Source of the DNA: a virus
Strand: one strand, 5' to 3'
DNA: 64,000 nucleotides
Virus record (IMG/VR): IMGVR_UViG_3300006921_000011
Span: 1-64,000 of that record
Shown: positions 22,464 through 61,539 of the stretch, one piece after another
Layout of the letters: every line of letters begins with the position of its first letter
Position numbering within the stretch: the first letter of the stretch is position 1
Program-made: the position numbers and the translations under genes
The notes under the pieces: model-generated
Told to the model about the DNA's origin: nothing
What the model saw: the letters and a program-made list of their open reading frames with translations, nothing else
The model's database searches: none

Positions 22464-23270
22464 TTAATAATCAGTTTTTTCTATTTTATTTCCTTTCATA
22501 ATATCTTTTGCAGCTGAGGTACCTAATCTAGTGGCCCCCGCATCTATCATTTTTTGTGCATCTTCTTTACTATAAATACCACCAGATGCTTTAACTTGTA
22601 ATGGACCAGAATTGGACTTCATAATACTTACAGCTTCTGGTGTTGCACCTATGGGTCTGTCATCATCCGCTTTATAAAAACCAGTAGAAGTTTTCACAAA
22701 AACATTACTAGCTTTTTCAGGTCCAACAGTTTCTATCACTATTTTACTAATTAATGTTGTAAGGTCAGCGATTTCATCAGGAGATAAAGCTGCGGACTCT
22801 ATAATCCACTTAACCGCTTTTCCCGCAGAGACCCCTATAGACGTACCCTCACTAACCTCTTTCCAAATTGTATCCAAGTCACCTTTTTGAAAGGCTTTGT
22901 AATTGACCACATAGTCTAATTCATCAACCCCATTTTGTATAGCTTCTATAGCCTCATCGAATTTTTCACCCATCCATGTGTCACCATGGGGAAATCCTAT
23001 AACAGTACCCACTAATACATTAGCTCCCTTACTATCTATAAATTCACGAGCTGACTCGACATATTCCGGTCTTATCATCACTAATTTCATATTATGGTCT
23101 ATCGCGTCTTGGATGGTGTTAAAAACAATAACGTCAGTTTCTTCTTCTCCTATACCCGCTTGTTCTGGGGTTTTTAAATATGTCGAATCTAGATATGACC
23201 CTAAATCTAACTCTTCTTGTTCCCTTATTAACATTAAATCCTGTATTCTTTTTATTTGTTCGTTTAACAT
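22464..23270 (-). CDS. deoC: Deoxyribose-phosphate aldolase (DeoC) with N-terminal extension
   Basis: A 268-residue class I aldolase that splits 2-deoxyribose 5-phosphate into glyceraldehyde 3-phosphate and acetaldehyde. Schiff-base lysine K193 lies in FVKTSTGF and the second lysine K227 in VKASGGI, 34 residues apart as in E. coli DeoC (K167/K201); D119 in ELDYVVN matches D102. GTVIGFPHG is also typical. An extension of about 20 residues (MLNEQIKRIQDLMLIREQEE) precedes the domain; it is an amphipathic helix closed by IRE. First gene of the minus-strand cargo operon, with a late-promoter-like palindrome 17 bases upstream. Confidence 0.93.
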   Translation of the reverse strand: MLNEQIKRIQDLMLIREQEELDLGSYLDSTYLKTPEQAGIGEEETDVIVFNTIQDAIDHNMKLVMIRPEYVESAREFIDSKGANVLVGTVIGFPHGDTWMGEKFDEAIEAIQNGVDELDYVVNYKAFQKGDLDTIWKEVSEGTSIGVSAGKAVKWIIESAALSPDEIADLTTLISKIVIETVGPEKASNVFVKTSTGFYKADDDRPIGATPEAVSIMKSNSGPLQVKASGGIYSKEDAQKMIDAGATRLGTSAAKDIMKGNKIEKTDY

Positions 23271-23306: not shown

Positions 23307-24014
23307 ATGAAAAATATAATTAAAAAAATATTAAGAGAAGAAACAAGGTATTTAAACGAAGCTAAAAAGAAAACTAAAAAAGATGCGTGTTATCACAAAG
23401 TCAAAGCAAGATACGATGTTTGGCCTTCTGCCTACGCATCTGGTGCTTTATCTAAATGTAGAAAAGTAGGTGCTTCTAATTGGGGAAAGACCTCAACCAA
23501 AGAAGAAAAAGAATTAGAAGAAAAAAGAAAACTAACATCAAAACCTAGTTCGGAAACTAATTTAAGAGATTGGTTTAAAAGAAAAGGAGCTCCGGGTAAA
23601 ACTGGTGGTTGGGTTGATTGTAATACCTGTAGGGATGGTAAATGTAAACCTTGTGGTAGAAGTGAAGGTGAAAAAAGAGAAAAACCTAGGTGTCGACCAA
23701 CACCGTCCGCTTGTAAAGGATTTAAAACTGAAAGTATTATAGAAGAAGCAGAGTATAGAGGAAGGAAAGTTAAACTTAACAAACCAACAAGAGGTGATGT
23801 TAAAAAGTTTAAGGTGTATGTTAAAAATGATAAAGGTAATGTAGTTAAAGTTAACTTTGGTCATGGTGGGACTTCCGCTAAAAAAAGAGGAGAAAAGACT
23901 ATGAAAATTAGAAAATCTAATCCTAAAGCAAGAAAATCATTTAGAGCAAGACATAATTGTGATAATCCAGGACCAAAATGGAAAGCAAGATATTGGAGTT
24001 GTAGAAAGTGGTAA
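23307..24014 (+). CDS. Basic Cys-rich internal-type protein (DUF5872-like), capsid-targeting-like N-terminus
   Basis: A 235-residue, strongly basic protein. N-terminus MKNIIKKILREE followed by YLNEAKKK carries two [I/L]-x-E type sites. Residues about 25-60 (KVKARYDVWPSAYASGALSK) match a module common in marine phages. Residues about 85-140 have paired cysteines (CNTCRDGKCKPC) that look zinc-binding and fit DUF5872. The C-terminal module ends in RKSFRARHNCDNPGPKWK with further cysteines. High charge and Cys pairs suggest nucleic-acid binding, as for T4 internal head proteins packaged with DNA. First gene of the plus-strand cargo operon. Confidence 0.75.
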   Translation: MKNIIKKILREETRYLNEAKKKTKKDACYHKVKARYDVWPSAYASGALSKCRKVGASNWGKTSTKEEKELEEKRKLTSKPSSETNLRDWFKRKGAPGKTGGWVDCNTCRDGKCKPCGRSEGEKREKPRCRPTPSACKGFKTESIIEEAEYRGRKVKLNKPTRGDVKKFKVYVKNDKGNVVKVNFGHGGTSAKKRGEKTMKIRKSNPKARKSFRARHNCDNPGPKWKARYWSCRKW

Positions 24015-24667
24015 TGAAAGATTTAATTAAAAATATAATAAGAGAAAGTCTAGTAACAGAAGCTAAAAAATCATTTTTTAGACGGGTAAGTTTACCTTAC
24101 GATTATAATTCTATGAAAGATTTTGTAGGGTATGAAACAATGTGGGAACATTACAATAAACACTATAAAGGTTATACAACTAAGTTAAACGAAACCTTAT
24201 CTAAAAGAAAAAACCCTTCTACTGATATTGAAAAAATTATTAGAGGAATTAAAAACTACAATACTTTTACTAGAAACAACGCTGGAGGTTACTATAATCA
24301 TAGTTTATTTTTTAAAGATTATATAACACCAGATAAAACAGAACTTTCAGAAAAACTTAGAAAAAAAATAAATAATGATTTTAGTAGTTTAGATAACTTT
24401 AAAAGACAGTTCGATGAAGAATCAGCTAAAGTGTTTGGTTCAGGTTGGTGTTGGTTAGTTATAAAAAACGGCAGACTTAAAATAGTTAGTACCCCTAATC
24501 AAGATAATCCGTTAATGGATAACTTGGGAGAACCTTTATTAGGTTTAGATGTTTGGGAACATGCTTATTATTTAAATTATATGGCAGATAGAAAAAAATA
24601 CATAAATAACTTTTGGAAAGTGGTGAACTGGGAAAATGTATCAAAAAAATATGAAGAACTTAATTAA
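24014..24667 (+). CDS. Superoxide dismutase, Mn type, with capsid-targeting-like N-terminus
   Basis: A 217-residue Fe/Mn superoxide dismutase. Metal ligands are all present: H46 (WEHYNKH), H96 (YYNHSLFF), D179 and H183 (DVWEHAYY). Gly-Gly at 91-92 and Gln163 in NQDNPLM follow the Mn-type rather than the Fe-type pattern. The enzyme turns superoxide into peroxide and oxygen. A 20-residue extension, MKDLIKNIIRE followed by LVTEAKK, precedes the domain and parallels the N-termini of both flanking genes. A GTG at 24008 is in frame, but the ATG at 24014 overlaps the upstream stop as TAATG and gives the matching leader, so I chose it. Confidence 0.93.
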   Translation: MKDLIKNIIRESLVTEAKKSFFRRVSLPYDYNSMKDFVGYETMWEHYNKHYKGYTTKLNETLSKRKNPSTDIEKIIRGIKNYNTFTRNNAGGYYNHSLFFKDYITPDKTELSEKLRKKINNDFSSLDNFKRQFDEESAKVFGSGWCWLVIKNGRLKIVSTPNQDNPLMDNLGEPLLGLDVWEHAYYLNYMADRKKYINNFWKVVNWENVSKKYEELN

Positions 24668-25304
24668 AAATATATTAAAGGAAGAACTTCTGTTGGAGGA
24701 GAAAGTGGTTGGTTTTAGTAACCCTTCTAATAACTTTGTGGTTATAGCTGGTGGCCCTGGTGCTGGTAAAAGTTTTATAACTAGAAATTTAATTGACTTA
24801 AATAACGTAAAGGAATTTAATGTTGACCAGGTTAGGGTTATGACGGCTAAGAAGTTATGGGGAGACGAATGGGAAGAAAACATATCGACCCCTGAAGGAT
24901 ATCAAGAAATACTTGACCGAACCTATACTACTTCTGACCCTAGAAATCTTACTGTTAGATTCTTAAAACAATTTTTACAAGCAGAACGAGGCCAATCAGT
25001 TAATGTTGTATATGATGCAGGTGGTGGTCAAGAACAAGTAATGAAGGATGTTTGGTCTATTGCGAAGGAAAATGGATTTGATACTACCTTGGTTTATGTT
25101 AGAACTCCTTTAGAATTAGCACAACTAAGAAATAGTGAAAGACCTCGAAGTTTACCACCAGATATGGTTGCACAATACCACCAAAAAGTTAAAGATAATA
25201 TGAGAAACATGATACCTCTTTTTGATAATGTATGGACGGTGGATAATAAAGAACTTATAGACCTATCAGATAGGCCTTCAGAAAATATCGAAAAAATTAA
25301 ATAG
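24651..25304 (+). CDS. P-loop kinase, zeta-toxin/polynucleotide-kinase type, with capsid-targeting-like N-terminus
   Basis: A 217-residue protein with Walker A GGPGAGKS (about residues 34-41), an acidic strand NVVYDAGGG near 125 and an arginine-rich lid (RNSERPRSLP). This arrangement fits zeta-toxin-like or small-molecule kinases of the P-loop class. MKNLIKNILKEE precedes it, almost the same as the leaders of the two upstream genes. An ATG at 24636 is in frame, but the one at 24651 gives the conserved leader. The gene overlaps the dismutase by 17 bases. Substrate unknown: UDP-sugars, nucleosides or RNA ends are possible. Confidence 0.75.
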   Translation: MKNLIKNILKEELLLEEKVVGFSNPSNNFVVIAGGPGAGKSFITRNLIDLNNVKEFNVDQVRVMTAKKLWGDEWEENISTPEGYQEILDRTYTTSDPRNLTVRFLKQFLQAERGQSVNVVYDAGGGQEQVMKDVWSIAKENGFDTTLVYVRTPLELAQLRNSERPRSLPPDMVAQYHQKVKDNMRNMIPLFDNVWTVDNKELIDLSDRPSENIEKIK

Positions 25305-45716: not shown

Positions 45717-46124
45717 ATGAAGCTTTACAACTCATTAAAAGGTCTTATATTAGAAGCAACGAACCGTGTGGATATTGAAAAAGCCATTAAAGGTAGAAAT
45801 GTTGTGTCAATATATTATGCAGGTGATACTACATTGAACCCTGGTTGGAGAACTATTGAACCAGTGTGTGATGGAATGAGTAGAACGAAGGTAGGTCCTG
45901 GTAATTTAGTTGTGAGAGCTTGGCAACGAGATGGAGCGACTGACCGACCTAGAACAATGCCTGGATGGAGATTGTTTAGAGCAGACAGAATAACAGCGTG
46001 GAATCCTACGTTAGATACTTTTGAGGAACCTAGACCTAACTTTAATCCTACCGGTGATAAGACTTTAAGAAATAATGCGTGTTTTGTAATAGCAGATTTT
46101 AAAACCGCACCACAAACAGTATAA
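45717..46124 (+). CDS. WYL-domain protein with capsid-targeting-like N-terminus
   Basis: 135 residues. From residue 17 it follows a WYL-domain pattern: IEKAIKGRNVVSIYYAGD, WRTIEPVC, NLVVRAWQRDG, then PGWRLFRADRITAW. WYL domains are ligand-sensing modules of bacterial and phage regulators that bind nucleic acids or nucleotides. The N-terminus MKLYNSLKGLILEATNR resembles T4 internal-protein leaders (MKTYQEFIAEA) in having M-K-x-Y, a hydrophobic helix and [I/L]-x-E-A. It may be packaged and injected as a regulator. Alone it has no helix-turn-helix. Confidence 0.72.
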   Translation: MKLYNSLKGLILEATNRVDIEKAIKGRNVVSIYYAGDTTLNPGWRTIEPVCDGMSRTKVGPGNLVVRAWQRDGATDRPRTMPGWRLFRADRITAWNPTLDTFEEPRPNFNPTGDKTLRNNACFVIADFKTAPQTV

Positions 46125-46127
46125 AAA

Positions 46128-46817
46128 ATGGCAGATTTAACCTCTTTAGAGACATCTTTATTAGCAGCAAAACAATTCATGAATCATGAAAAATTACAAA
46201 AAGGTGTAGACCCTAATAGTAGAACAGTATCACAACATAGTATACCTGTTCAAGAAGCAGTTAGTGCACCAGTACCTTTTCCACAAAATACACCACAACA
46301 CCAACCTATGAATATGGCTCAACGTCAACCAGCCCCACCTAACATGAAACCACACGCTAATATTACAGAAGAATCTATTAGAAAATCTAATCTTCCTGCA
46401 GCGATTAAAGAGGCCATGATAACTCACCCAATACCAGATATTCAAACTGGAGCAGATTTAAATTCGGACTTTATAAATAAGGTAGCAGAAAAAATGAATA
46501 GTGAACAATTTTCAGTTCAAGGTATGAGAAATACAGCAAATTCAACAATACAAACACCCCAACAACAACCACTCAGAGAGTCTAGACCGACCATACCTCA
46601 AAACTCACCAATACCTTCCCCAACAAGAAATTTAGATTCTAATGATTTAAAGAGTGAAATCAAAGCTTTAATATCGGAAAGTCTAGATGAATTAATAGAA
46701 ACAAAAATTAATAAAGTATTACTTGAAACTAAGAATGCAAAAGAAAATATACATTTTAGAGTAGGTAATAAAATATTCACAGGAAAAATTTCAAAAGTTA
46801 AAACATTAAAAAGTTAA
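46128..46817 (+). CDS. Pro/Gln-rich protein with helical C-terminus, possible prohead core protein
   Basis: 229 residues. Residues about 40-85 and 135-165 are Pro/Gln/Asn-rich and disordered (TPQHQPMNMAQRQPAPP). The C-terminal 60 residues form a charged helix (DLKSEIKALISESLDELIE) with several [I/L]-x-E triplets, then a short beta tail (IHFRVGNKIFTGKISKVK). Head core proteins of T4-like phages are cut at such triplets, so a scaffold role is possible but unproven. It starts 3 bases after the WYL gene. Confidence 0.6.
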   Translation: MADLTSLETSLLAAKQFMNHEKLQKGVDPNSRTVSQHSIPVQEAVSAPVPFPQNTPQHQPMNMAQRQPAPPNMKPHANITEESIRKSNLPAAIKEAMITHPIPDIQTGADLNSDFINKVAEKMNSEQFSVQGMRNTANSTIQTPQQQPLRESRPTIPQNSPIPSPTRNLDSNDLKSEIKALISESLDELIETKINKVLLETKNAKENIHFRVGNKIFTGKISKVKTLKS

Positions 46818-46869
46818 AGGTTGACATAGTAACGATTTTTAGGTACCATTTACTTAAATAAAATTTATT

Positions 46870-48102
46870 ATGTCAAAAATTAATGTACTCGTAATCCCAA
46901 GTGATAGAACTGGGGTTTCAAAATTCCGGTCAGTTGACCCACACTTGTATCTTCAAAAAATGTACCCAGATGATTTTTGGGTAGACATCGACTACGAACC
47001 AAAATTAGAAGATGAAAACTTTCTTAAAAAATACCAAATCATACATTACCACAGAAGTTTATCTCCAGATTATAATAGGTCATTATCTTCTCTTCCTTTA
47101 ATTAAAAAATTAGGAATTGTAGATATAATGGATTTAGATGATTATTGGTTACCTAATAGAGAACATCCGGCCTTTATGTTGATTAAACAAAATAATATGG
47201 ATAAAATGATATTAAAAAATCTTCAAGCTGCTGGTCACGTAACCACTACAACTCCAATATTTGCGGGAGAAATTAAACCACATTGTGAAAAAGTATTTGT
47301 ATTACCAAATGCGGTTGACCCAAGTGAAAAACAATTCATGCCTAATTATGAAAAATCAGATAAGGTTCGTGTTGGTTGGTTGGGTGGTTCTTCACACATG
47401 GCGGATTTAGAAATATTAAATGGAATAATCGGTAAATTAGGAACATCAGCTTCTAAATCTCAATTTGTGTTATGTGGTTTTGATACTAGAGGAAGTGTAA
47501 CCATGATTAACCAAGATACTGGAGAACAAACTCAAAGACCTATCACCCCTACCGAATCTGTATGGTATAAATACGAACAGATTTTTACTGACAATTATAG
47601 AACTGTAGGTGAAAAATATAAAAAGTATTTAATGGAATTTAAAAGAGACGAATACACAGATGATTTTAATGAATTAAATTATAGGAGAGTATGGACTCGT
47701 CCTATAACTACCTACGCAGAAAATTATAATCGATTTGATATCAGTTTGGCTCCCTTGAAACATCATACGTTTAATAGAGTAAAATCACAATTAAAGGTTA
47801 TCGAAGCTGGTTTCCATAAAAAAGCATTAATTGCTCAAGATTTTGGACCTTATCAAATAGATTGTATAAATGCGATGGAAAGAGGTGGGACCATAAATGA
47901 TAGAGGAAATGCCTTATTGGTGGAAAAAACTAAAAATCATAAATTATGGGGTAAATACACTAAATTATTAATTAACAACCCGGATTTAAGAGAACAATTA
48001 GGTGAAAATCTATATCAAGATGTACAACCTTACCACATTAAAAATGTTACAGCTAAAAGAGCTGAAATTTATAAAGAATTAGTTAGACAAAAAAATAAAT
48101 AA
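46870..48102 (+). CDS. Glycosyltransferase, GT4-like (GT-B fold)
   Basis: A 410-residue protein. The N-terminal Rossmann lobe begins INVLVIPSDRTGVSKFRS; the C-terminal lobe has KVRVGWLGGSSHMADLEIL and, near residue 300, ISLAPLKHHTFNRVKSQLKVIEAGFHKKALI, where the K-x-x-x-E-A segment is the GT4 nucleotide-sugar motif. Sugar donor unknown. It opens the carbohydrate region and is separated from the previous gene by a 52-base AT-rich gap. T4-like phages use such enzymes for DNA or virion glycosylation. Confidence 0.85.
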   Translation: MSKINVLVIPSDRTGVSKFRSVDPHLYLQKMYPDDFWVDIDYEPKLEDENFLKKYQIIHYHRSLSPDYNRSLSSLPLIKKLGIVDIMDLDDYWLPNREHPAFMLIKQNNMDKMILKNLQAAGHVTTTTPIFAGEIKPHCEKVFVLPNAVDPSEKQFMPNYEKSDKVRVGWLGGSSHMADLEILNGIIGKLGTSASKSQFVLCGFDTRGSVTMINQDTGEQTQRPITPTESVWYKYEQIFTDNYRTVGEKYKKYLMEFKRDEYTDDFNELNYRRVWTRPITTYAENYNRFDISLAPLKHHTFNRVKSQLKVIEAGFHKKALIAQDFGPYQIDCINAMERGGTINDRGNALLVEKTKNHKLWGKYTKLLINNPDLREQLGENLYQDVQPYHIKNVTAKRAEIYKELVRQKNK

Positions 48103-48120
48103 AATTAAAAATTAAAAAAA

Positions 48121-48552
48121 ATGGCAGAAGTAGTAATTAACGACAAAGTAAAGACCCACGAAGAGGGCAAACACACTTATATTGGAAAATATAAAGGAAA
48201 AGATTTTAAAGCAAGTATGCAAGACATGAATGATGATAGAGAACTTGTTTATATGGAAGGTGAAGAAAATTTCACTGATGAAGATAAAGATGTTATTTTT
48301 GAACAATTAGATGAAATGACTTACGTAGATTCTATTGAGGAGGCTGGTAATGATAAAGTATACATTGAAAATAATTATGAAACTTGGTTCGCTTTTAAGT
48401 TTGAAGCTTATGGTTCTTATGGTGAAAATAAATTTATCGTGGAGGAATATAGTGATGAACATGGTGGTGACGCAACATTCATAGAAGGGGAAGACAACTT
48501 TAATGAAGAAGAACAAGAACTAATTTACGAAGCAGTTAACGAATATATGTAA
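48121..48552 (+). CDS. Acidic protein with internal duplication
   Basis: A 143-residue, highly acidic protein in which one unit appears twice: residues 42-65 (VYMEGEENFTDEDKDVIFEQ) and 118-141 (TFIEGEDNFNEEEQELIYEA), each preceded by a strand-rich stretch. It appears to be a tandem repeat of a beta-hairpin plus helix. The start follows AAATTAAAAAAA, and the CDGSH gene uses nearly the same leader. The next gene begins 1 base after its stop. Function unknown. Confidence 0.65.
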   Translation: MAEVVINDKVKTHEEGKHTYIGKYKGKDFKASMQDMNDDRELVYMEGEENFTDEDKDVIFEQLDEMTYVDSIEEAGNDKVYIENNYETWFAFKFEAYGSYGENKFIVEEYSDEHGGDATFIEGEDNFNEEEQELIYEAVNEYM

Positions 48553-48553
48553 G

Positions 48554-48802
48554 ATGAGTAAATTACCTGATTGGTTTGATGGAGAGTTGTATGAAGAAGG
48601 AGATGAAGTAAGTAACCGATTTTCTGGTGAAAAATATACCTTGACAGCGGAAGAATTATCCATGTATGATTTTATTATGGGTGCACAGATAGTTCTTGAA
48701 ATGGGTATGGGAGATAATTCTAAAATTATTGAGGACCTACGTAAGGGTTTAGATTGGTTTAGAACAAATAACAACAAGGCCTATATGGTCTTATTAGATT
48801 AA
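48554..48802 (+). CDS. Conserved small phage protein
   Basis: An 82-residue protein: LPDWFDGELYEEGDEVSNRF, then LTAEELSMYDFIMGAQIV and a C-terminal RKGLDWFRTNNNKAYMVLL. I recognise this pattern from hypothetical proteins of marine phages, but no function is known. It lies between the acidic repeat protein and the CDGSH gene, within the accessory cluster. Confidence 0.65.
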   Translation: MSKLPDWFDGELYEEGDEVSNRFSGEKYTLTAEELSMYDFIMGAQIVLEMGMGDNSKIIEDLRKGLDWFRTNNNKAYMVLLD

Positions 48803-48817
48803 AAATTAAAAAAAAAA

Positions 48818-48997
48818 ATGGCAGTAGAAATTAACATTATGGAAAATGGACCAATTTTGGTCAAAGGAGAAACCACAGTAACAAAAGGTGGGGAAAAAGT
48901 AGTAGTTAGTGAAAATTATGCATTGTGTAGATGTGGCAAGAGTAAAGCCCAACCAATGTGTGATGGAGCACATAAATCAGAAAATTTTAAAGGATAA
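48818..48997 (+). CDS. CDGSH iron-sulfur domain protein
   Basis: A short 59-residue gene found by reading the gap. It has C37, C39, C48 and H52 in LCRCGKSKAQPMCDGAHKS, the exact spacing (2, 9, 4) of the 2Fe-2S CDGSH motif of mitoNEET. The ATG at 48818 follows an A-rich leader nearly identical to that of the 143-residue gene. CDGSH proteins are small redox or Fe-S transfer factors. The next gene starts 4 bases after its stop, consistent with one operon. Confidence 0.88.
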   Translation: MAVEINIMENGPILVKGETTVTKGGEKVVVSENYALCRCGKSKAQPMCDGAHKSENFKG

Positions 48998-49001
48998 AAA
49001 T

Positions 49002-49235
49002 ATGTACTATCAAGCAATCGTAGCATTTGAAACTGGAGTCATCGATAATAACGGTGTCCCAAAAGTTAAAAAATTTAAATATATTGTGGAGTCGGAATCT
49101 GTGTTTGAAGCAAATAAAAGACTTGCACATTACCTTTCTGAAGACACTAGAGATTCAGAAATTATATCGGTCGTTAAAGCACCTTACGAAGATATCTTAC
49201 ACCCAGAACTAACACCAAATTATTATAAACAATGA
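49002..49235 (+). CDS. Small conserved protein (DUF4494-like)
   Basis: 77 residues: MYYQAIVAFETG, then VKKFKYIVESESVFEANKRL, and a C-terminal VVKAPYEDIL. Two strands followed by an 'E-A' helix resemble DUF4494, a small family that I associate with Bacteroidota and their phages. A longer in-frame reading from 48909 would run through the CDGSH gene in another frame, so the ATG at 49002 is the better start. Overlaps the next gene by 4 bases (ATGA). Confidence 0.6.
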   Translation: MYYQAIVAFETGVIDNNGVPKVKKFKYIVESESVFEANKRLAHYLSEDTRDSEIISVVKAPYEDILHPELTPNYYKQ

Positions 49236-49936
49236 TTGACAACATAAACAAATTATTATTTCTAGATATAGAAACCGTAGGTCTTTATGACGATTTAGAT
49301 GATTTAAATCACCAGTCCCCACAACTTTATACTGTTTGGGAGGATAGTGGTTATGAATATTTTAAAAGACATTATCCTGAGGATTCTAATTTAACAAGTA
49401 ATGAGATGTTTAGTAAACGTGCTGGTCTTCTAGCAGAATTTGGAAAAATTGTTTGTGTTTCTGTTGGTTTTGTTTTGGAGAATGGAGAAACTAAGTTAGA
49501 TAGTTTTACTGGTGAAGAAAAAGAAATTTTAACTAACTGCTCCAACCTTTTAAATAGGGTGGATAAGTTAGGATTTCTTATTTGTGGTCACAATGTAAAA
49601 AACTTTGATTTACCATATATTGGAAAAAGGATGACTATAAATGGTATTGGAGTACCTGATATAGTACCTAACTATAAAATCAAACCTTGGGAGTCTAGAG
49701 TGTTAGACACTAAAGAGGTCTGGAATTTTAATTCTTATAGGGGATTATCCTCCTTGGAGTTGGTGTGTGCCTCCTTAGGAATTCCCAACCCTAAAGATAA
49801 TGAAGTAAATGGAGCAAACCTCCACTCTTTCTATTATGGTGATAACTTAAATATGAAAGAAAAACTAGAAAAGATTAAGAACTATTGTGAAGAAGATGTT
49901 CTATCTTTAATAAAATTTGTACAAAAAATAAAATAA
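49232..49936 (+). CDS. 3'-5' exonuclease, DnaQ/PolB-exonuclease type
   Basis: A 234-residue DEDD exonuclease: LFLDIETVG (D12, E14), GHNVKNFDLPYI (second Asp) and YCEEDVLSLI near the C-terminus (YxxxD, DEDDy type). Similar stand-alone domains occur in phages as predicted PolB-like 3'-5' exonucleases. It may remove 3' ends in recombination or process nucleic acid. It overlaps the small gene upstream and ends 1 base before the dUTPase gene, in one operon. Confidence 0.82.
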   Translation: MIDNINKLLFLDIETVGLYDDLDDLNHQSPQLYTVWEDSGYEYFKRHYPEDSNLTSNEMFSKRAGLLAEFGKIVCVSVGFVLENGETKLDSFTGEEKEILTNCSNLLNRVDKLGFLICGHNVKNFDLPYIGKRMTINGIGVPDIVPNYKIKPWESRVLDTKEVWNFNSYRGLSSLELVCASLGIPNPKDNEVNGANLHSFYYGDNLNMKEKLEKIKNYCEEDVLSLIKFVQKIK

Positions 49937-49937
49937 T

Positions 49938-50546
49938 ATGATAGACGGATTAATGGGTAAAATAAAAACCTTACAAACCATGGCAAAAGCAAACCCTAAG
50001 GATTTAATGAATGAAATGATGGACATACAAAATGACGCGAATCTTTTAAAAGATTTAAATAATTTACAAATGGAAGACTTAAATCCTGAACCACAGAAAA
50101 TACCGGTGAAGTTTATAAATAAAAGTAACCACCCAGACCCTGTGTTCCAACATAAAGATGATAGTGGATTTGATTTAAGAGCTAACATACCTGGGGATAG
50201 ACTAACGTTAAAACCAATGGCAAGACTTGCGGTTCCCACAGGTTTATACTTTGAATTACCTGAACACTATGAATTACAAGTAAGACCTAGAAGTGGTTTA
50301 GCTTATAAACATGGTATAACAGTACTTAATACTCCAGGTACTGTGGATAGAGGATATAGGGGGGAAATTAAAATAATTTTAATTAACCTTAGTGATGAAG
50401 ATTTTATTATCAATGACGGTGATAGAATTGCACAAGGAGTAATAAACGGAATATTATCACAATACTGGTCCGACTTTATTAAAGTTAATGAGGTTTCGGA
50501 TTCAGAACGTGCTGATAATGGTTTTGGAAGTACAGGTAAGAAATAA
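49938..50546 (+). CDS. dut: dUTPase with N-terminal helical extension
   Basis: A 202-residue enzyme that hydrolyses dUTP to dUMP and keeps uracil out of DNA. All five trimeric dUTPase motifs are present: SGFDLRA (76-82), PRSGLA (117-122), GTVDRGYRGE (134-143), GDRIAQGV (161-168) and RADNGFGSTG (191-200). Residues 1-55 are an added helical extension (MIDGLMGKIKTLQTMAK) not seen in standard dUTPases and without a clear [I/L]-x-E site. Stop and start of the epimerase gene overlap (TAATG). Confidence 0.95.
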   Translation: MIDGLMGKIKTLQTMAKANPKDLMNEMMDIQNDANLLKDLNNLQMEDLNPEPQKIPVKFINKSNHPDPVFQHKDDSGFDLRANIPGDRLTLKPMARLAVPTGLYFELPEHYELQVRPRSGLAYKHGITVLNTPGTVDRGYRGEIKIILINLSDEDFIINDGDRIAQGVINGILSQYWSDFIKVNEVSDSERADNGFGSTGKK

Positions 50547-51526
50547 TGAAGAATATATTAATAACAGGTGGACTAGGGTTTATTGGGTCCTCTTTAACAA
50601 AAAGATTACACGCCAAATATCCAGAATATAGTTTGGTGGTTGTGGATAAGAATAATGACTTAAGTAGATTAGAGGATATAAAAGATGATATAAAAATTTA
50701 TTCATATGATATATGTGAACAAAGAATGATGGATAAATTATTCGAATTATATGATTTTGATGGAGTTTTTCATTTAGCTTCTAGAAAACCTAAATTAAAT
50801 GAGGAGTATAAGGAAACTGAATTTATTAAAACTAACATTCTAGGAACAACTATAATACTGAATAATTGTGTAAAACAAAAAAGTAGACTACTCTACACTT
50901 CTAATACTGAGGTATATGGAAGTTTAGATATGGATAAACGAACACACCTCTACGAAACTAATTGTTACAACCCATCAACACCCTATGCAGCATCTAAAGC
51001 AAGTGCAGACCATCTAATTACAGCTTACCATGAAAAATATGGGTTAGATACACTAATCGCAAACATTTCTAACACCTATGGTCCCGGTCAAGATTCAGAA
51101 GATTTTGTCTATGTCATCATTGATTCTCTACTTAATAAAAAACCTATACCTGTTTTTGGAACGGGTGAAAATGTTAGAGATTGGGTTTTTATTGATGATG
51201 TTGTGGATATGTTGGATTTGGCTTACCATAAAGGGGTGTCAGGTGAAAATTATAATGTAGGGGGTGGTACCCTTAATGAATTTAATAACGTAGAATTAAT
51301 TAATCAGATTAGTAGAAGTGTAACTACCATTTTAGATGGAGAGGACGCAAATCATAGACTTATTGACCATCTCTCTGATATGGGCGGTCACGATTTGAGA
51401 CATTCTGTTAATTACGATAAAAGTACTCTTAGGTTACGTTGGAAACCTAAAACTCGGATAGAAACGGGTATAAATGATACAATACAATGGCACATAGATA
51501 AAAATGGGATTAACAATAACATTTAG
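50546..51526 (+). CDS. NAD-dependent sugar epimerase/dehydratase (extended SDR)
   Basis: A 326-residue SDR enzyme. GGLGFIGS (7-14) binds NAD, TSNTEVYG replaces the STDEVYG of dTDP-glucose dehydratases, and YAASKASAD holds the Y-x-x-x-K catalytic pair. GTGENVRDWVFIDDVV is the usual C-terminal motif of nucleotide-sugar epimerases. The absence of the DE pair in the TSNTEVYG segment argues against a 4,6-dehydratase and for an epimerase or related enzyme. Substrate unknown. First gene of the tight glycan operon. Confidence 0.85.
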   Translation: MKNILITGGLGFIGSSLTKRLHAKYPEYSLVVVDKNNDLSRLEDIKDDIKIYSYDICEQRMMDKLFELYDFDGVFHLASRKPKLNEEYKETEFIKTNILGTTIILNNCVKQKSRLLYTSNTEVYGSLDMDKRTHLYETNCYNPSTPYAASKASADHLITAYHEKYGLDTLIANISNTYGPGQDSEDFVYVIIDSLLNKKPIPVFGTGENVRDWVFIDDVVDMLDLAYHKGVSGENYNVGGGTLNEFNNVELINQISRSVTTILDGEDANHRLIDHLSDMGGHDLRHSVNYDKSTLRLRWKPKTRIETGINDTIQWHIDKNGINNNI

Positions 51527-53018
51527 TACAAAAGAAATAGATGAGACATTTATTTCACACCTAAAAGATAGTTGTGGAGTTAAAGATGTTGAGGTTCTAG
51601 CTTATGAAAATAAAGGAACTATGTCTTTAACCGAAGTTTATAATAAAGCTCTTAATGAGGCTACTAACGATATAATTGTATTTACACATGACGACGTAAT
51701 ATTAGGTAAAAATAACTGGGGTAAAAAATTGATAAAACAATACACTAATTCAGATTTTGGAATTTTAGGTGTAGCTGGTACCACTCATATGGCATCTACT
51801 GGAAGATGGTGGGAAGATAATTCTAAAATGATTGGTAGGGTTAGTCATTCACACGAAGGTAAGACTTGGACTAATAGTTACAGTAACACTTTTCCAGGTA
51901 AAATATTAGAGGTGTGTTGTTTAGATGGTGTGTTTTTTTCATGTCATAAAAAAAGAATCAATAATAATTTTGACGAAGGTGTCGAAGGTTTCCATTTCTA
52001 TGATGTAGATTTTAGTTTTGGAAATCATTTAAGTGGTGTAAAGTGTGGAATAATTTTTGATGTTAAACTAACCCACAAATCGATAGGTATGACTAATGAT
52101 GAATGGGAAAGTAATAGAGTAAAGTTTGTAGAAAAATACAGTTTTATCCCTAATACAAAAGAACCTTGTCTCCCATATAATATCAAACCTAGTATAATTT
52201 ACAGAGATAAAACTTTAAAAATAAAAAACCCACCTAAAGTAAGTATAATAATTCCTACCATTGATAATATCGACATGTTATTTAGATGTGTGGATTCTAT
52301 ATTAGAAAAAAGTACTTACAAGAATATTGAAATTTTTATAGCCGATACTGGAAGTAGTGAAGAGAATCTTAAAGAGATAAAGGGTAGATACACCCAAGAC
52401 TTTATAAAAATATTAGAATATGATTACTATCATTTTGCAGAAATAAATAATGATGTTGTTAATAATCATGTAAGTGAGGATAGTGAACTTTTATTGTTTT
52501 CTAATAATGATATCGAGTTAATAAATGATGCTATAAGTGAAATGGTAAACTTATGGAGTAAAAATAAAAAACGTTGTGGTACTGTAGGTGCAAGATTACA
52601 CTTTGAAGACAACACCCTACAACATGCTGGAATGTTTTTATTTGGTAGAAGAGATGGTGAAAATGTAAATCTAGGGTTAACACACCATGGTCATCGTTCT
52701 CCATACACCTACCCATTCGAAAACGTAACCGGAACTATCGGAAACACCGCAGCTTTTGTTTTAATGAGTAAATCGGTCTTTAAAGAGATGGGAATGTTTA
52801 ATGAACGATATATGGAATGTCTAGAAGATGTAGAATTAAATCTAGCATGTGTGGTTAACGGAAGAATTAATTGTTTTGCAGGGAATGCTGTAGCTTATCA
52901 CTATGAAAGTATAACACGAAAAACTGATGGACAATTAAATCCACAAGACTGGCAACAACTAGTGGGGTATATTAGAAATAACCCCAAACTAAATAATGTA
53001 ATACAAATATTAAATTAA
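51504..53018 (+). CDS. Two-domain glycosyltransferase (GT-A, GT2-like)
   Basis: A 504-residue protein with two GT-A-like modules. Residues 1-225 contain IVFTHDDVILGK (DxD-like) and GFHFYDVDFSFG. Residues about 240-495 form a typical GT2 domain: VSIIIPTIDNIDML, IFIADTGSSEENL, SNNDIEL and a C-terminal MECLEDVELNLACVV (acid/base region). It could add two sugars in sequence. The ATG overlaps the epimerase end by 23 bases. Confidence 0.85.
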   Translation: MGLTITFSTKEIDETFISHLKDSCGVKDVEVLAYENKGTMSLTEVYNKALNEATNDIIVFTHDDVILGKNNWGKKLIKQYTNSDFGILGVAGTTHMASTGRWWEDNSKMIGRVSHSHEGKTWTNSYSNTFPGKILEVCCLDGVFFSCHKKRINNNFDEGVEGFHFYDVDFSFGNHLSGVKCGIIFDVKLTHKSIGMTNDEWESNRVKFVEKYSFIPNTKEPCLPYNIKPSIIYRDKTLKIKNPPKVSIIIPTIDNIDMLFRCVDSILEKSTYKNIEIFIADTGSSEENLKEIKGRYTQDFIKILEYDYYHFAEINNDVVNNHVSEDSELLLFSNNDIELINDAISEMVNLWSKNKKRCGTVGARLHFEDNTLQHAGMFLFGRRDGENVNLGLTHHGHRSPYTYPFENVTGTIGNTAAFVLMSKSVFKEMGMFNERYMECLEDVELNLACVVNGRINCFAGNAVAYHYESITRKTDGQLNPQDWQQLVGYIRNNPKLNNVIQILN

Positions 53019-53019
53019 T

Positions 53020-53796
53020 ATGAAAGTAGGAATATCTTATAATCTGTTTGATGGTGAGGAACTTTTAGAAAGTTCTATTAAAAGTATTCGGGATAATGTA
53101 GAATACATAAGTGTAGTATACCAAACTATATCTAATTTTGGAAATCCTTGTAGTGAGGATTTAGTGTCACACCTGGAGTCTTTAAAGGAGGAAGGGTTAA
53201 TTGATGAATTATATCTTTACAAACCCAATCTAAAAGCTGGTGGTCATTTTAATGAAATAACTAAAAGAAATATAGGATTATTCTTATCGGAACGTCATAA
53301 CTGTACCCACCATATGGCTATGGATTCAGACGAATTTTACACTACAATACAATTCATAAACATGAAAAACATTTTGAAAGAAGGTGGATATGACTCCAGT
53401 GCGTGTCAAATGACAACATATTATAAAGAACCAATATATAGACTTGAACCAAAAGAAGATTATTACGTGTCTCTACTTTTTAAAATTAAACCTGGTAGAA
53501 GATATGAACTAAATTGTCCTTTCCCGGTTTTAGTAGACCCAACTAGAAGAATGGAGTTTGGTAAGTGTAAAGTATTCAAAAGAGAAGATATTGAGATGCA
53601 CCATATGAGTTATGTTAGGAAAGATATAAGAACTAAACTAACTAATTCATCTGCCTCACCTAATTTTAAAAATATCGATAGGTTGGTTAATTATTATAAT
53701 TCCTGGGAATATCCAAAACAGGCGTTGATGGGTGGTGCACCAGATAAATTTTACGATATAGTAAAAGAAGAAAAACTATTTAATTCATGGGAGTAA
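53020..53796 (+). CDS. Glycosyltransferase-like protein (GT-A)
   Basis: 258 residues. Begins MKVGISYNLFDGEELLESSI, the usual opening of GT2-like folds in which a nucleotide-sugar site follows, and has MAMDSDEFYTT near residue 105 as a D-x-D-type metal motif. The C-terminal half has MEFGKCKVFKREDIEMHHM. Probably transfers a sugar in the glycan locus; donor unknown. It starts 1 base after the two-domain enzyme. Confidence 0.75.
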   Translation: MKVGISYNLFDGEELLESSIKSIRDNVEYISVVYQTISNFGNPCSEDLVSHLESLKEEGLIDELYLYKPNLKAGGHFNEITKRNIGLFLSERHNCTHHMAMDSDEFYTTIQFINMKNILKEGGYDSSACQMTTYYKEPIYRLEPKEDYYVSLLFKIKPGRRYELNCPFPVLVDPTRRMEFGKCKVFKREDIEMHHMSYVRKDIRTKLTNSSASPNFKNIDRLVNYYNSWEYPKQALMGGAPDKFYDIVKEEKLFNSWE

Positions 53797-54419
53797 TCGA
53801 TGAGTATTTCGATAAAATATATTGTGTAAACCTTGATGAAAGGAAAGATAGGTGGGAACAGGCTAAAAAAGAATTTGATAAATTAGGAATAGAAGATGTT
53901 ACTAGATTTTCAGCTGTTAAACATGAAAATGGTGCTATTGGTTGTAGGGATAGTCATTTAGGAATTATTAGAGAAGCTAAAGAATTAGGACTAGATAATG
54001 TTTTAATATTTGAAGATGATTTATTAGTCTTAGATGAACATGTTGATAAGATACATTTGGCTTTAAAAGATTTGGATACTGTGGATTGGGATTTGTTTTA
54101 TTTTGGTGCTACGGTTGACCCTAATGTGGGTAGACTACAAAGAGCTACAGATAATTTAGTTCTTACGAACTGGGCTTATACTACCCATGCTTATGCAGTA
54201 CCCTCTAGACTATTCGATTTTATTTTAAATGAAGCACCAAAACACGGAATAATAGATGTTTTTCTATGTAGAGCTGTTGTTCCTAGAGGAAAAACTTTTA
54301 TCATGAATCCTTTGTTGTGTATACAACAAGAAAGTTACAGTGATATAGAAAAACATCACGCTGACTACTGGTGGATGGTAAAGTTTTTTAATAACGTATT
54401 AGAAAAAGAAAATAAATAA
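53787..54419 (+). CDS. GT25-family glycosyltransferase (LPS galactosyltransferase type)
   Basis: A 210-residue protein. IYCVNLDERKDRWEQAKKEF is the GT25 opening, AIGCRDSHLGIIREAKE the conserved mid-motif, and VLIFEDDLLV the D-x-D-like site; all in order and spacing. GT25 enzymes build lipooligosaccharide cores in Gram-negative bacteria. It overlaps the previous gene by 10 bases and the sulfotransferase gene by one (TAATG). Confidence 0.88.
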   Translation: MGVIDEYFDKIYCVNLDERKDRWEQAKKEFDKLGIEDVTRFSAVKHENGAIGCRDSHLGIIREAKELGLDNVLIFEDDLLVLDEHVDKIHLALKDLDTVDWDLFYFGATVDPNVGRLQRATDNLVLTNWAYTTHAYAVPSRLFDFILNEAPKHGIIDVFLCRAVVPRGKTFIMNPLLCIQQESYSDIEKHHADYWWMVKFFNNVLEKENK

Positions 54420-55102
54420 TGGCATATAATCACGATAAAGGTACCTGTTGGTACAATGAGAACACCTGTTGTTATATTGGTGTACCTAAAACCGCTTCCA
54501 CCACTATGAGAAGAGTTTTTAGTTTAGATAATGTAGATAATTACCTACAACCAGAGAATGGTGACATAAAAAAATTAGACTTAATTACTATTTTTAGAAA
54601 CCCATTAGATAGGTTAGTGTCCGCTTATAATGAAGTAGTAAAACGAGGAGGACACCCAATAGAAGGTGAAGGAATAAGAAAAGCGTCTTTTTGGGAAATG
54701 CCTGAAGGTAGAGAAAGGTTCTTAACTTTTTTAGATGATGTTGAAGAGGAGTTTTTTGATTCACACGTAGAAGAACAAATGTTTTATATGACTGATGATA
54801 ATGAAGAATTATTACCTTTCACTCATATTTTAGATTTCGATAATCTGGATGACCAGTTTATTAATATCTTAGGTTTACGTACTACAGAAAATCCAGATTA
54901 TTTTTTAAAACATGATGGTATGGTACAAATAAGAGTACACCAAAAAAGTAGTGAAGAAGATAAAAAAAGAACTGAGAATTATTTAGATGAAAAAATAATA
55001 GAAAGAATTAAGAAAATATATGCTAGAGATTTTGATTTTTTTAACTTATTAAATAATCCACAACCAACACCTAAACTTTTTAATACTAATCTAAAATGGT
55101 AA
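54419..55102 (+). CDS. Carbohydrate sulfotransferase (PAPS-dependent)
   Basis: A 227-residue sulfotransferase: YIGVPKTASTTMRR is the 5'-phosphosulfate loop and FRNPLDRLVSAYNEV the 3'-phosphate-binding motif, as in membrane-type carbohydrate sulfotransferases. It moves sulfate from PAPS to a sugar hydroxyl. PAPS must come from the host. It sits between GT25 and the fucosyltransferases, so the target is probably the glycan made by this operon. Confidence 0.88.
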   Translation: MAYNHDKGTCWYNENTCCYIGVPKTASTTMRRVFSLDNVDNYLQPENGDIKKLDLITIFRNPLDRLVSAYNEVVKRGGHPIEGEGIRKASFWEMPEGRERFLTFLDDVEEEFFDSHVEEQMFYMTDDNEELLPFTHILDFDNLDDQFINILGLRTTENPDYFLKHDGMVQIRVHQKSSEEDKKRTENYLDEKIIERIKKIYARDFDFFNLLNNPQPTPKLFNTNLKW

Positions 55103-55866
55103 CATCTAACCTAATAGGTGGTTTAGGAAATTACCTATTTCAAATAGCAACAGCATATTCTTTAGCGAGTGACAATAAAGATACAATAATGTATGACCCA
55201 GAAAAAAGTGTTATTGTACATAATCACATTAGTACTTATATGGATAATATACTTTCTAAGGTGCCTTTTGGAGAGGTGAGGGTAGACCATGAGTATGAGG
55301 AACCCCACTTTCACTACTCTCCTATTTCCTATAAAAACAACTTAAAAATAAACGGATACTATCAAAGCGAAGAATATTTTACACATAATAGAGATAAAAT
55401 ATTAGATTTATTTTCATTTGATTCATCTCACCTCACTTTAATTGATGAAAAATATGGTGAGTTATTAAAAACTAAAACTTGTGCTATCCATGTAAGGAGA
55501 GGCAATTATCTAACCCTACCCAACCATCACCCTGTTTGTAATTTTGATTACTACCAACACGCTATTTCATTAATGCCAAAAGACTGTGAATTTTTAGTTT
55601 TTTCGGACGATTTAGAGTGGTGTAAAGACAATTTTACCAATATAGATAGAAGGTTCCACTATATAGAAAACAATGTGGATTATATAGATTTATTATTAAT
55701 GTCAAAATGTGACAATAATATAATAGCAAATTCTAGTTTTTCATGGTGGGGTGCTTGGTTAAATAACAGTAACACCAAATTAGTTGTTGCACCTAAAAGA
55801 TGGTTTGGGAATGCTATTAACCATAATACTGAAAATTTAACACCAAAAACATGGATAAGACTATAA
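55096..55866 (+). CDS. GT11 fucosyltransferase (alpha-1,2 type)
   Basis: A 256-residue GT11 enzyme with GGLGNYLFQIA at residues 8-18, IHVRRGNYL as the GDP-fucose-binding motif and ANSSFSWWGAWLN near the C-terminus, all canonical. It adds fucose in alpha-1,2 linkage. GDP-fucose can be supplied by the GDP-mannose dehydratase and fucose synthase at the end of the window. It overlaps the sulfotransferase gene by 7 bases and the GT10 gene by 16. Confidence 0.92.
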   Translation: MVTSNLIGGLGNYLFQIATAYSLASDNKDTIMYDPEKSVIVHNHISTYMDNILSKVPFGEVRVDHEYEEPHFHYSPISYKNNLKINGYYQSEEYFTHNRDKILDLFSFDSSHLTLIDEKYGELLKTKTCAIHVRRGNYLTLPNHHPVCNFDYYQHAISLMPKDCEFLVFSDDLEWCKDNFTNIDRRFHYIENNVDYIDLLLMSKCDNNIIANSSFSWWGAWLNNSNTKLVVAPKRWFGNAINHNTENLTPKTWIRL

Positions 55867-56600
55867 GAGCAAAAACATATGGATGTTTAGAACCGGAATT
55901 ATATTTTAACAAAAGTGTTAGTATTTCCTCCGATACTATAGAACGTGATACTAATGCAGAATTTAAAGTATTATTACAATTAGAACCACCAAGTATTGTA
56001 GACTTAACCACACCTATAATCCAAAACCAACATTACTTTGATTTGATTTTGGCGTGGAAACAAGAAGTGTTAGATGCTTGTGAAAATAGTGTATTTCTTC
56101 CTTTTGGTTCTTGTTGGATTGAGGATGAAGACCACGGGGTTCATGAAAAAAATAAACTTGTATCTATTATTGCTTCTCAAAAAAACATAACTATAGGTCA
56201 CAAATTACGTCACTCTATTATAGCTACAGATAAAACATTAGATTTATTTGGGAGAGGCTATAAACCTATCGATAATAAAATTACAGCTTTAAAAGATTAT
56301 ATGTTCTCTGTTATAATAGAGAACTCGACAACTAAAAACTATTTTAGTGAAAAAATAGTGGATTGTTTAATCACTGGGACGATTCCTGTTTTTTGGGGTT
56401 GTGAAAATATTGCGGACTTTTTTGATGAAAGAGGTTTTATATTTTTCAACAGTGTTAAAGAATACAAACAAATAAGAGATAGTCTCACCAAGGAAAAATA
56501 TTTAGAAATGTTACCGTTTATTCAAAAGAATTATAAACTCTCTTTAAATTATATTAAATTTGCTAAAAGAGTAGAAAAAGAAATTAATAAAAGACTATAA
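55851..56600 (+). CDS. GT10 fucosyltransferase (alpha-1,3/1,4 type)
   Basis: A 249-residue protein. The GT10 signature is clear in LKDYMFSVIIENSTTKNYF, followed by SEKIVDCLITGTIPVFWG, which binds GDP-fucose. It is shorter than bacterial Lewis-type enzymes such as those of Helicobacter, having only the core. Paired with the GT11 gene it suggests a glycan with fucose in two linkages. It overlaps GT11 by 16 bases, so translation is coupled. Confidence 0.88.
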   Translation: MDKTIRAKTYGCLEPELYFNKSVSISSDTIERDTNAEFKVLLQLEPPSIVDLTTPIIQNQHYFDLILAWKQEVLDACENSVFLPFGSCWIEDEDHGVHEKNKLVSIIASQKNITIGHKLRHSIIATDKTLDLFGRGYKPIDNKITALKDYMFSVIIENSTTKNYFSEKIVDCLITGTIPVFWGCENIADFFDERGFIFFNSVKEYKQIRDSLTKEKYLEMLPFIQKNYKLSLNYIKFAKRVEKEINKRL

Positions 56601-56601
56601 G

Positions 56602-58089
56602 ATGAAAGAAAAGGTATTGGTAATTATGGGACAACACAGAAGCGGTACGTCCGTTCTTTCAGGTTGTTTAAAGATATTGGGAAGTTACTTAGGTGCTGAC
56701 TATCAAGAAGAAAAAGACCAGTATAATGAAAAGGGATATTTCGAGGGTAAGTGGACAGACCATATTAATAATACTATTTTAAATAAGGTAGGTATGGAAT
56801 GGAACCATGCGATTGATTTACCCAACAACTGGTACAACCACCCAAAACTAGAGGAATTGTATGGTATAGTAAGAACTCACATACTGAAAGATTTAGAAAA
56901 TAAACCAGAAGGAAGTTTCTATACTATAAAGGACCCACGAATCTCATTAATCTTACCTTTTTATATTAGAGTGTTTCAGCAGTTAAATCTGGACCCTAAA
57001 TTTATATTTTCCGACAGAGAAAATAGTGAGATGATAGAATCTTTAGTTAAAAGAGATAATTTAAATCCTGATTCCCTTGAGCCTTTACTTAACTACCACC
57101 GACTTTATTGTAGAAAATACATTGGTGAGGAAGATATAATTTGGACCCACACATTTAAAAATATACTATACAAACCCATAAATTTTTTAAGTTATATTAT
57201 AAAAAGATTTGATTTACCTAATAACATTAATGATAAAACTAAAAAAGAAATATTAGATTTCATTGATGTAAAATTAAAACATCACCACACTAAAACTAAT
57301 GTTAAAGTTATATGTACCTATTTTGGTCAGAGAAGAACTAATGTTGTCTATGGTCGTAGTGATACCCATAGTGGTCACATACCAAAACATTCTGGGGTAG
57401 AAAATACTATTAATTTTGTAAAAAATTTATTAGAGTTTGAGCGGGTGGTAGATTCTGGGGTGTTTATGGATACAATCCTTATCAATCACGATGTAAGTGA
57501 TATCACCAAAGATGAAACTGCTAAAAAATTCTTAGAAGAAATAGACGGTACCCCAACTAGAAACGGAGTGATAAAAGTAATAAATAGACCTTTTAATAAT
57601 GGTATTGGTGGTGGTTTTGGTTCGTTTAATCACGTTTATCAGAAATACAAAGAAGATTACGAATATTGGTATTTTACAGAGGATAATGTGGTACAAACTA
57701 GAGATTTTTATTTTATCCAATCTATAGTACAATTAAATGAAGATGAAAGGGTTGGTTTTATCTGTGGATACAGACACACGCCTTTAAGAGATAATCCCCA
57801 CCCAAAAATGCATTGTCATGGAGGTTGTGGTGCTACCCACATATCTCATTTAAATAAAGTAAATGACTCTCACGGTTCACTATCATATTATGGTGAACCA
57901 TTTAATGAAGCTATGTTAGAAAATATTAACGATATGGAGGCTTTTGGAAGTCATGCTTGGGCATGGTACCGTGGGTTTGAGGATGAGGGAGAGGTAGGTT
58001 TTACACATACTTTTATTGAAGCTGGTCTAGTATTACAAGATATACAAAGAGATGATAAATTTTGTTGTTATTATGGAGACTGTTACTAA
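56602..58089 (+). CDS. Fusion of sulfotransferase and glycosyltransferase-like domains
   Basis: 495 residues in two parts. Residues 1-225 are a sulfotransferase domain: VLVIMGQHRSGTSVLSGCLK is the PAPS 5'-phosphosulfate loop, and KFIFSDRENSEMIESLV takes the place of the 3'-phosphate motif. Residues about 230-495 look GT-A-like, with a nucleotide-sugar opening (VKVICTYFGQR), WYFTEDNVVQTRDF in the D-x-D position and GGFGSFNHVYQKYKED. It could attach and sulfate one residue. Ends in a TAATG overlap with the next transferase. Confidence 0.78.
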   Translation: MKEKVLVIMGQHRSGTSVLSGCLKILGSYLGADYQEEKDQYNEKGYFEGKWTDHINNTILNKVGMEWNHAIDLPNNWYNHPKLEELYGIVRTHILKDLENKPEGSFYTIKDPRISLILPFYIRVFQQLNLDPKFIFSDRENSEMIESLVKRDNLNPDSLEPLLNYHRLYCRKYIGEEDIIWTHTFKNILYKPINFLSYIIKRFDLPNNINDKTKKEILDFIDVKLKHHHTKTNVKVICTYFGQRRTNVVYGRSDTHSGHIPKHSGVENTINFVKNLLEFERVVDSGVFMDTILINHDVSDITKDETAKKFLEEIDGTPTRNGVIKVINRPFNNGIGGGFGSFNHVYQKYKEDYEYWYFTEDNVVQTRDFYFIQSIVQLNEDERVGFICGYRHTPLRDNPHPKMHCHGGCGATHISHLNKVNDSHGSLSYYGEPFNEAMLENINDMEAFGSHAWAWYRGFEDEGEVGFTHTFIEAGLVLQDIQRDDKFCCYYGDCY

Positions 58090-58877
58090 TGATTTCTATT
58101 TGTATACCCACATATAATCTTAAAGGAGATAAACATGATGAGAGTTATAATAATCTCACTATGTTGATTGACTTATTTAGAAGTATTGAAATTCAAACAT
58201 ATACTAACTATGAGGTTATTATATCCGACCACTCAGTTGATGGTAGTATTAAAGAAATTTGTGATATGTGGGCTGATAGGATTAATATAAAATATTTTCT
58301 AAATGAAATAAACCATGGTAGTTGTGAGGCTAATCTTAATAATGCAATACTAAAAGCTAAGGGAGATTATATAAAACCTATGTTACAGGATGATTATTTT
58401 AGTTCACCAGAGTCTCTAACGATTTTAGTTAACACATTAAAAAATAATAAGAATAAATGGATAGCTTGTGGTTGTTTACACATTAACGAAAATGACCCTA
58501 CACCATTTAATCCCCACCCACCTAGATTAAATGACCCACGACAGTTATTAAATGGTATAAATCTTATTGGGAGTCCAGTGGTTGTGATGTATAAAAAAGA
58601 AATGGATTTATTGTTTGACCATAACTTAATTTGGTTAATGGATGTTGAGTTTTATTATAGGGCTTTAAAGAACTATGGTCCTCCCATTCTTATAGATGAT
58701 ATGTTACTAATAACCAGACTAAGAAAAGATGGGATAACTAATACTATGATAACTCAAGATATTATTGATGAGGAGACCGACTACTGTAATCGTAAAAATA
58801 TAGATGGTGTAAATATTAACCTAGAAGACTACCCATCGATGAATAAAAGAATTAAAAAATTCAAAGGTCTTGATTAA
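58089..58877 (+). CDS. GT2-family glycosyltransferase
   Basis: 262 residues. Opens ISICIPTYNLKGDKHDESYNN, then YEVIISDHSVDGSIKE, LQDDYF as the D-x-D site and DVEFYYRALKNYGPP as the acceptor-side helix, a complete GT2 order. An in-frame ATG 27 bases earlier exists, but the ATG at 58089 overlaps the upstream stop (TAATG) and gives the normal GT2 N-terminus. Last gene of the first block of the operon; a 111-base AT-rich gap follows. Confidence 0.88.
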   Translation: MISICIPTYNLKGDKHDESYNNLTMLIDLFRSIEIQTYTNYEVIISDHSVDGSIKEICDMWADRINIKYFLNEINHGSCEANLNNAILKAKGDYIKPMLQDDYFSSPESLTILVNTLKNNKNKWIACGCLHINENDPTPFNPHPPRLNDPRQLLNGINLIGSPVVVMYKKEMDLLFDHNLIWLMDVEFYYRALKNYGPPILIDDMLLITRLRKDGITNTMITQDIIDEETDYCNRKNIDGVNINLEDYPSMNKRIKKFKGLD

Positions 58878-58988
58878 TCCCTATAGACCTGAAAAAAACG
58901 AAGGAAAAACTTTATTTCATATAAAAAATAGAGTATGATTATAATGAAAAACAATACCCTTTAATGGGAAAAAGAAAAGTAAAAATTT

Positions 58989-60394: not shown

Positions 60395-60399
60395 AAATT

Positions 60400-60990: not shown

Positions 60991-60991
60991 T

Positions 60992-61537: not shown

Positions 61538-61539
61538 AT

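Follow-up and report, generated by a model that had tools for sequence, protein, structure and literature searches.

A gene for a superoxide dismutase (SOD) is found at positions 24014..24667 on the plus strand of the window, a 64,000-nucleotide stretch of viral DNA that forms the largest part of a 69,881-bp IMG/VR record, itself fragmentary. The gene encodes a 217-amino acid protein assigned to the Mn-type Fe/Mn SODs, in which a catalytic domain (residues 21-217; 24074..24664, plus strand), delimited by Pfam, PDB alignments and an alignment to SodA, is preceded by an N-terminal leader. The ATG start codon at 24014 lies within the TAA stop codon of the preceding gene, which gives a TAATG overlap. 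The leader, MKDLIKNIIRESLVTE, comprises 16 residues (24014..24061, plus strand) and is followed by a predicted prohead-protease cut after Glu16 (SLVTE|AKK).

The enzyme part of the protein is readily recognized. Matches to Sod_Fe_C (2.2e-40) and Sod_Fe_N (3.6e-14) both exceed the curated Pfam cut-offs; a search of PHROGs v4 with the same protein returned no family. A preliminary description of this DNA had stated that all metal ligands are present, and the alignment to E. coli SodA bears this out, with H26, H81, D167 and H171 of SodA corresponding to H46, H96, D179 and H183 of the window SOD. The same alignment reveals that H30, Y34, G76, G77, W128, Q146, E170 and Y174 are also retained, and that the gateway residues are in place. 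Among these, Gly77 and Gln146 (E. coli SodA numbering) identify the protein by sequence as Mn-type, as had been proposed. The dN/dS ratio of the SOD domain is 0.02-0.05, which indicates strong purifying selection. An AlphaFold2 model of the protein has a mean pLDDT of 89.7, and its top fold match in the PDB is the MnSOD of Sphingobacterium T2 (6gsc). The gene product is predicted to be a catalytically competent Mn-type SOD.

The leader does not belong to the SOD fold, as judged from where alignments start and from model confidence. PDB alignments obtained by sequence search begin at residues 20-27, mostly at residue 22, and residues 1-20 of the AlphaFold2 model form a low-confidence helical tail (mean pLDDT 58 for residues 1-10 and 49 for residues 11-20, with values below 50 across residues 10-17). 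The 20-residue leader first described as arising from the TAATG start is retained as to its start and shortened as to its length, to about 16 residues up to the predicted cut. Start codon and leader are kept in eight IMG/VR relatives (84-88% identity), in which in-frame stop codons occur 1-3 codons 5' of the SOD start. The 16-codon leader evolves faster than the SOD domain and is too short for a firm dN/dS estimate. The eight residues that follow the cut are also conserved, so part of the conservation at this junction may be structural. Among the readable proteins in a set of 80 cellular SOD homologues, no such leader was found; these begin at the SOD domain or with a longer N-terminal stretch, in several cases resembling a secretion signal. 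This agrees with the earlier statement that the leader is absent from bacterial enzymes.

The leader resembles the propeptides of T4 internal proteins. In T4, gp21 cleaves after L/I-x-E, and internal-protein propeptides have 10-19 residues (PMC9026906). Residues 1-10 of IPIII are sufficient for targeting to the T4 head (PMC9026906), and T4-type targeting sequences can package foreign proteins (PMC3012670). The window SOD and its relatives carry N-terminal sequences with the form of such a propeptide, 10-19 residues long and ending in [L/I]-x-E, with V at P3 of the window site (SLVTE) as a conservative departure from the T4 rule. The window junction is MKDLIKNIIRESLVTE|AKKSFF, and relatives have LLVE|AKK, LLTE|VKK, LLTE|AKK, FLSE|AKK or IIAE|AKK, with sites at 16-20 residues; in one of them (L002), four additional residues separate the helix from the site. 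Further SODs (L081-L085) have a leader of another class, ending in ILE or LLE.

A matching protease is encoded by close relatives. Three large contigs whose SODs are 84-85% identical to that of the window (G004, G006 and G007) each encode a gp21-type prohead protease (PF03420, E-values 2e-27 to 4e-26) and a gp23-type major capsid protein (MCP; PF07068). The protease was not detected in the 69.9-kb window record, which is a fragment, and the protease and MCP of the window phage are expected from these relatives. The sequence LINE|A occurs at the expected propeptide end in all nine MCPs that were read. Of 20 contigs whose SODs are more distant, 8 contain PF03420 and 10 contain PF07068; many of these contigs are fragments. 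Host contamination as the source of the IMG/VR SOD matches was ruled out by head genes on many of the same contigs. Comparison of MCPs places Flavobacterium phage immuto, Microcystis phage Mel-JY01 and Rhodothermus phage RM378 closest among cultured phages. Phage immuto was set aside as a check on virion content, since no SOD is annotated in it and its structural annotation is sparse.

The genes on either side of the SOD gene begin with the same leader. The upstream gene (23307..24014, plus strand) encodes a 235-amino acid basic, Cys-containing protein that starts MKNIIKKILREETRYLNE|AKKK, and the downstream gene (24651..25304, plus strand) encodes a P-loop (AAA_33/zeta-like) kinase domain, recognized by Pfam, that starts MKNLIKNILKEELLLE. 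A matrix of the leader assigns the two neighbours 26.6 and 25.5 bits, respectively, and the top score among 20,000 shuffled N-termini is 20.3 bits, in keeping with the earlier observation that the leader is common to the flanking genes. Leaders are exchanged among relatives of both proteins: the G006 relative of the basic protein bears a different leader, and the G004 relative of the kinase has one of a different class, ending LMTE|AKVVGF. A leader-bearing relative of the basic protein is found in the cultured Flavobacterium phage immuto (L061, 111184-111654). In G007 (45839-51202), a relative of the kinase forms the C-terminal part of a 1787-amino acid protein.

Both the leader and the adjacent 235-amino acid protein are rich in Lys, and lysine mediates the DNA contact of T4 internal proteins (PMC3012670). 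The packaged protein might serve chiefly in the structure of the head core or in DNA binding, with dismutase activity as a mere by-product. This seems very improbable in view of the fully conserved metal ligands and second-sphere residues and the dN/dS below 0.05.

Other window genes have related features. A DeoC-type aldolase gene (22464..23270, minus strand; Pfam DeoC, 4.1e-8) encodes another class of N-terminal leader (MLNEQIKRIQDLMLIRE, EQIKRIQDLMLIRE), which is also found on its relative in G006 (2 N-terminal matches, with 0.07 expected). This aldolase is possibly a further packaged metabolic enzyme. A WYL-domain-like protein (45717..46124, plus strand; weak Pfam match) has the leader-like start MKLYNSLKGLILE|A, and its relative in G004 begins MKLYNTVRELILE|V. 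From about 46870 to 63733, the window contains a long run of genes that, from the N-terminal sequences of their products, look like genes for glycosyltransferases, aminotransferases and methyltransferases.

The leader is found on many proteins unrelated to SOD. The matrix was trained on six SOD leaders only and run over 723 predicted proteins from the window record, G004 (297.6 kb), G006 (136.8 kb) and G007 (232.0 kb). Twenty matches exceed 16 bits, and 16 of them begin at residues 1-12, compared with 0.76 expected. These 16 comprise 4 SODs and 12 non-SOD proteins, so that among the non-SOD matches 12 of 16 are N-terminal, with 0.6 expected. Two of the remaining four directly follow an internal Met, one begins at residue 13 and one is C-terminal. 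The last, KKLIKRILKEQ at the end of a 170-amino acid protein (G004, 291800-292312), is the sole strong match away from a start. One leader-bearing non-SOD protein has M23, SLT and peptidoglycan-binding domains, and a PAP2 phosphatase carries the leader at a lower score (15.5 bits). Leader-like starts also occur on a phage lysozyme, a DHH-like protein and the WYL-like protein. A further leader class, LTE..L..LI..V, has 11 N-terminal cases, compared with 0.33 expected. When the position of [LIVM]-x-E-[AGS] was examined in all proteins of the relatives, the N-terminal excess was weak, and the whole-leader matrix was used instead. In the window phage group, leaders of this type are thus found on otherwise unrelated cargo, and by sequence the leader is a phage-specific, modular element.

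Most SODs of the phage clade are multidomain (L103, L106, L086 and others). One fused form of about 366 amino acids has an N-terminal region with an HExxH motif followed by SOD, forms of 512-550 amino acids have SOD with a C-terminal domain, and larger forms reach 884-922 amino acids. In a second sample, further forms of about 700-740 amino acids bear both extensions. Genes on the metagenomic contigs were called mechanically as the longest open reading frame, and the fused forms predicted in this way agree across several independent contigs. The HExxH region has no Pfam match and is zincin-like in a reading by eye. In the C-terminal domain, E, D and QxK positions are invariant; it has nothing above the Pfam cut-off, and its top Foldseek match is the PD-(D/E)xK homing endonuclease I-Ssp6803I (E = 3.5e-3), which is suggestive only of a PD-(D/E)xK-like nuclease.

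Candidate cut sites flank the SOD domain in these proteins. In an independent motif sample, [LIVM]-x-E lies directly before SOD in 63 of 65 distinct junctions; the junctions are related by descent, so these counts do not represent independent events. In the junction logo, P1 is Glu in 60 of 64 and P3 is I, L or V in 63 of 64, and P2 is variable. A second site lies 25-31 residues past SOD in 43 of 50 fused proteins. The predicted cut motif beside SOD is therefore conserved even where the upstream sequence has been replaced. A broader proposal, which is tentative and to which we give a little less than an even chance, is that an extensive lineage of T4-like phages of the Bacteroidota type packs the dismutase as a [zincin-like]-[SOD]-[PD-(D/E)xK-like nuclease] polyprotein module. 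The prohead protease would cut this module into separate enzymes in the capsid, and one gene would supply antioxidant, nuclease and peptidase at injection. The window phage would then have a trimmed, single-module form.

The phage SODs constitute a large group outside of cultured isolates. The preliminary description held that SOD genes are rare in tailed phages. This is true of sequenced isolates, since SOD was found in 28 of 50,697 INPHARED records, several of them evidently bacterial sequence. Records that resemble bacterial sequence include OR850395, OR845917 and AGRM01000004, among others; E. coli SodA is present in OR845917, and L070 is E. coli SodA. The claim does not extend to uncultured contigs. 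A conserved-pattern scan detected at least 411 SOD relatives among viral contigs, a lower bound taken, like the other collection scans, from the best matches of longer lists. The idea of rarity needs correction accordingly, because the SOD gene is the mark of a fairly large lineage of uncultured phages. The best 80 of these relatives are 49-88% identical to the window SOD, and the best cellular matches reach at most 48%. A phylogeny against host sodA had been suggested, and in a tree with cellular SODs 25 distinct phage SODs are separated from 38 cellular SODs by a branch with 99/99 support. The tree has no outgroup, its cellular sample consists of matches to a phage-led query, and the SOD of Pseudomonas phage PA5oct was omitted as too divergent. 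Within those bounds, the separate phage clade rules out recent transfer from a host sodA gene, and places the window SOD in a phage-only clade found across hundreds of IMG/VR contigs.

We consider it probable, at roughly 70%, that the window SOD is a head-packaged, protease-trimmed and co-injected enzyme of a large uncultured T4-like phage. Packaging and cutting are suggested by the motif, the protease and the modularity of the leader, and the role against superoxide by the enzyme class. During head assembly, the amphipathic leader would dock SOD in the prohead core. The gp21-type protease would then cut after Glu16, at a site of the form [L/I/V]-x-E|A, and free SOD within the head; the same protease would split the fused forms into separate chains. 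SOD would be ejected into the host together with the DNA and may remove superoxide early in infection, ahead of new phage protein synthesis. It might in this way dampen an oxidative burst, as the preliminary description had suggested.

Alternately, SOD might be an ordinary auxiliary metabolic enzyme that is produced in the infected cell and works there, with the leader an unrelated localization or interaction helix that is neither packaged nor cut. The SOD genes of PA5oct and Vibrio phage 2.275.O adjoin cytosolic metabolic and host-takeover genes, and a related phage-type SOD without a leader exists (L088, 4001-4621). Moreover, the generic motif [LIVMF]-x-E occurs near the N-terminus as often in PA5oct proteins detected by mass spectrometry as in those undetected (20/91 and 67/300; odds ratio 0.98, p = 1.0). 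By itself the motif is thus no proof, and no conclusion here depends on it alone. However, an unrelated helix would be unlikely to recur on both neighbours and on many unrelated proteins, to keep a cut-type motif beside SOD across differing upstream sequences, and to occur in a phage whose relatives encode a gp21-type protease and an MCP with the corresponding cut site. We regard this alternative as unlikely.

The evidence for packaging applies equally if the enzyme acts in the free virion, where it might keep oxidative damage from the packed DNA and proteins as long as the particle is outside a host, and not act after injection. The Cu,Zn-SOD of Megavirus, which is listed with the proteins of the virion, is a viral precedent (PMC9405923). 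T4 internal proteins with such leaders, however, are ejected and work in the host (PMC9026906), and relatives of the window phage encode SOD on the same polypeptide as nuclease-like and zincin-like regions, which would be expected to act in a cell. Action in the virion is accordingly judged quite unlikely.

The tag on SOD and the matching cut sites in its fused relatives thus suggest that an antioxidant enzyme is injected with phage DNA. If the co-injection reading is correct, superoxide control at phage entry becomes a directly testable infection step, and head-packaged cargo would include a classical antioxidant enzyme. The leader could also serve as a sequence rule to list likely injected proteins in many uncultured phages. 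The fused relatives point to a possible role of prohead proteases in the processing of polyproteins.

Several known systems share parts of this arrangement. IPI-III and Alt of T4 likewise have a short N-terminal propeptide ending in [L/I]-x-E, with varied cargo behind similar leaders, and a T4-like gp21-type protease is also present in the genomes of window-phage relatives. The T4 cargo of known role consists of a restriction inhibitor and an ADP-ribosyltransferase and includes no SOD, and packaging in the window phage is proposed from sequence. A literature search that covered few subscription papers yielded no account of phage SODs that follow a prohead-protease leader, nor of SOD fusions.

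The PA5oct-like Pseudomonas phages (Arenbergviridae) and Vibrio phage 2.275.O are large phages that have gp21 and gp23 homologues and the same Fe/Mn-SOD fold. Their SODs are shorter, and tblastn identity to the window SOD is only about 29% (PA5oct) and 27% (Vibrio phage 2.275.O). The divergent PA5oct protein (L010, 8001-8549, equivalent to PA5oct 172979-173527) is annotated as a hypothetical protein with an ESI-MS/MS tag. It begins MNDSIKKYISIAE|A, a short IAE|A start only, and has His at the Gln146 position. The SODs of the Arenbergviridae and the Vibrio phage lack the window-type leader, and the Vibrio copy lacks any N-terminal leader. Bacterial SodA proteins, such as the Sphingobacterium sp. 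T2 enzyme 6gsc and Staphylococcus SodA, have the same fold and active site at about 44% identity. They lack this leader type and fall with the cellular set on the other side of the 99/99 split.

Phage polyvalent proteins (Iyer et al. 2017, PMC5512222) are multidomain, likely packaged and include zincin-like domains, which parallels the fused SOD relatives; the main text of that report does not mention superoxide or dismutase. In contrast, the window SOD has a single domain, and several unrelated effector domains in one polypeptide are predicted in the fused relatives only. The Megavirus Cu,Zn-SOD is also virus-encoded and cited among virion-packaged enzymes (PMC9405923), but differs from the window SOD in its unrelated fold and metal, in its origin in a eukaryotic virus and in having no prohead-protease leader. 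Neither the family to which this enzyme belongs nor the principle of its packaging is new.
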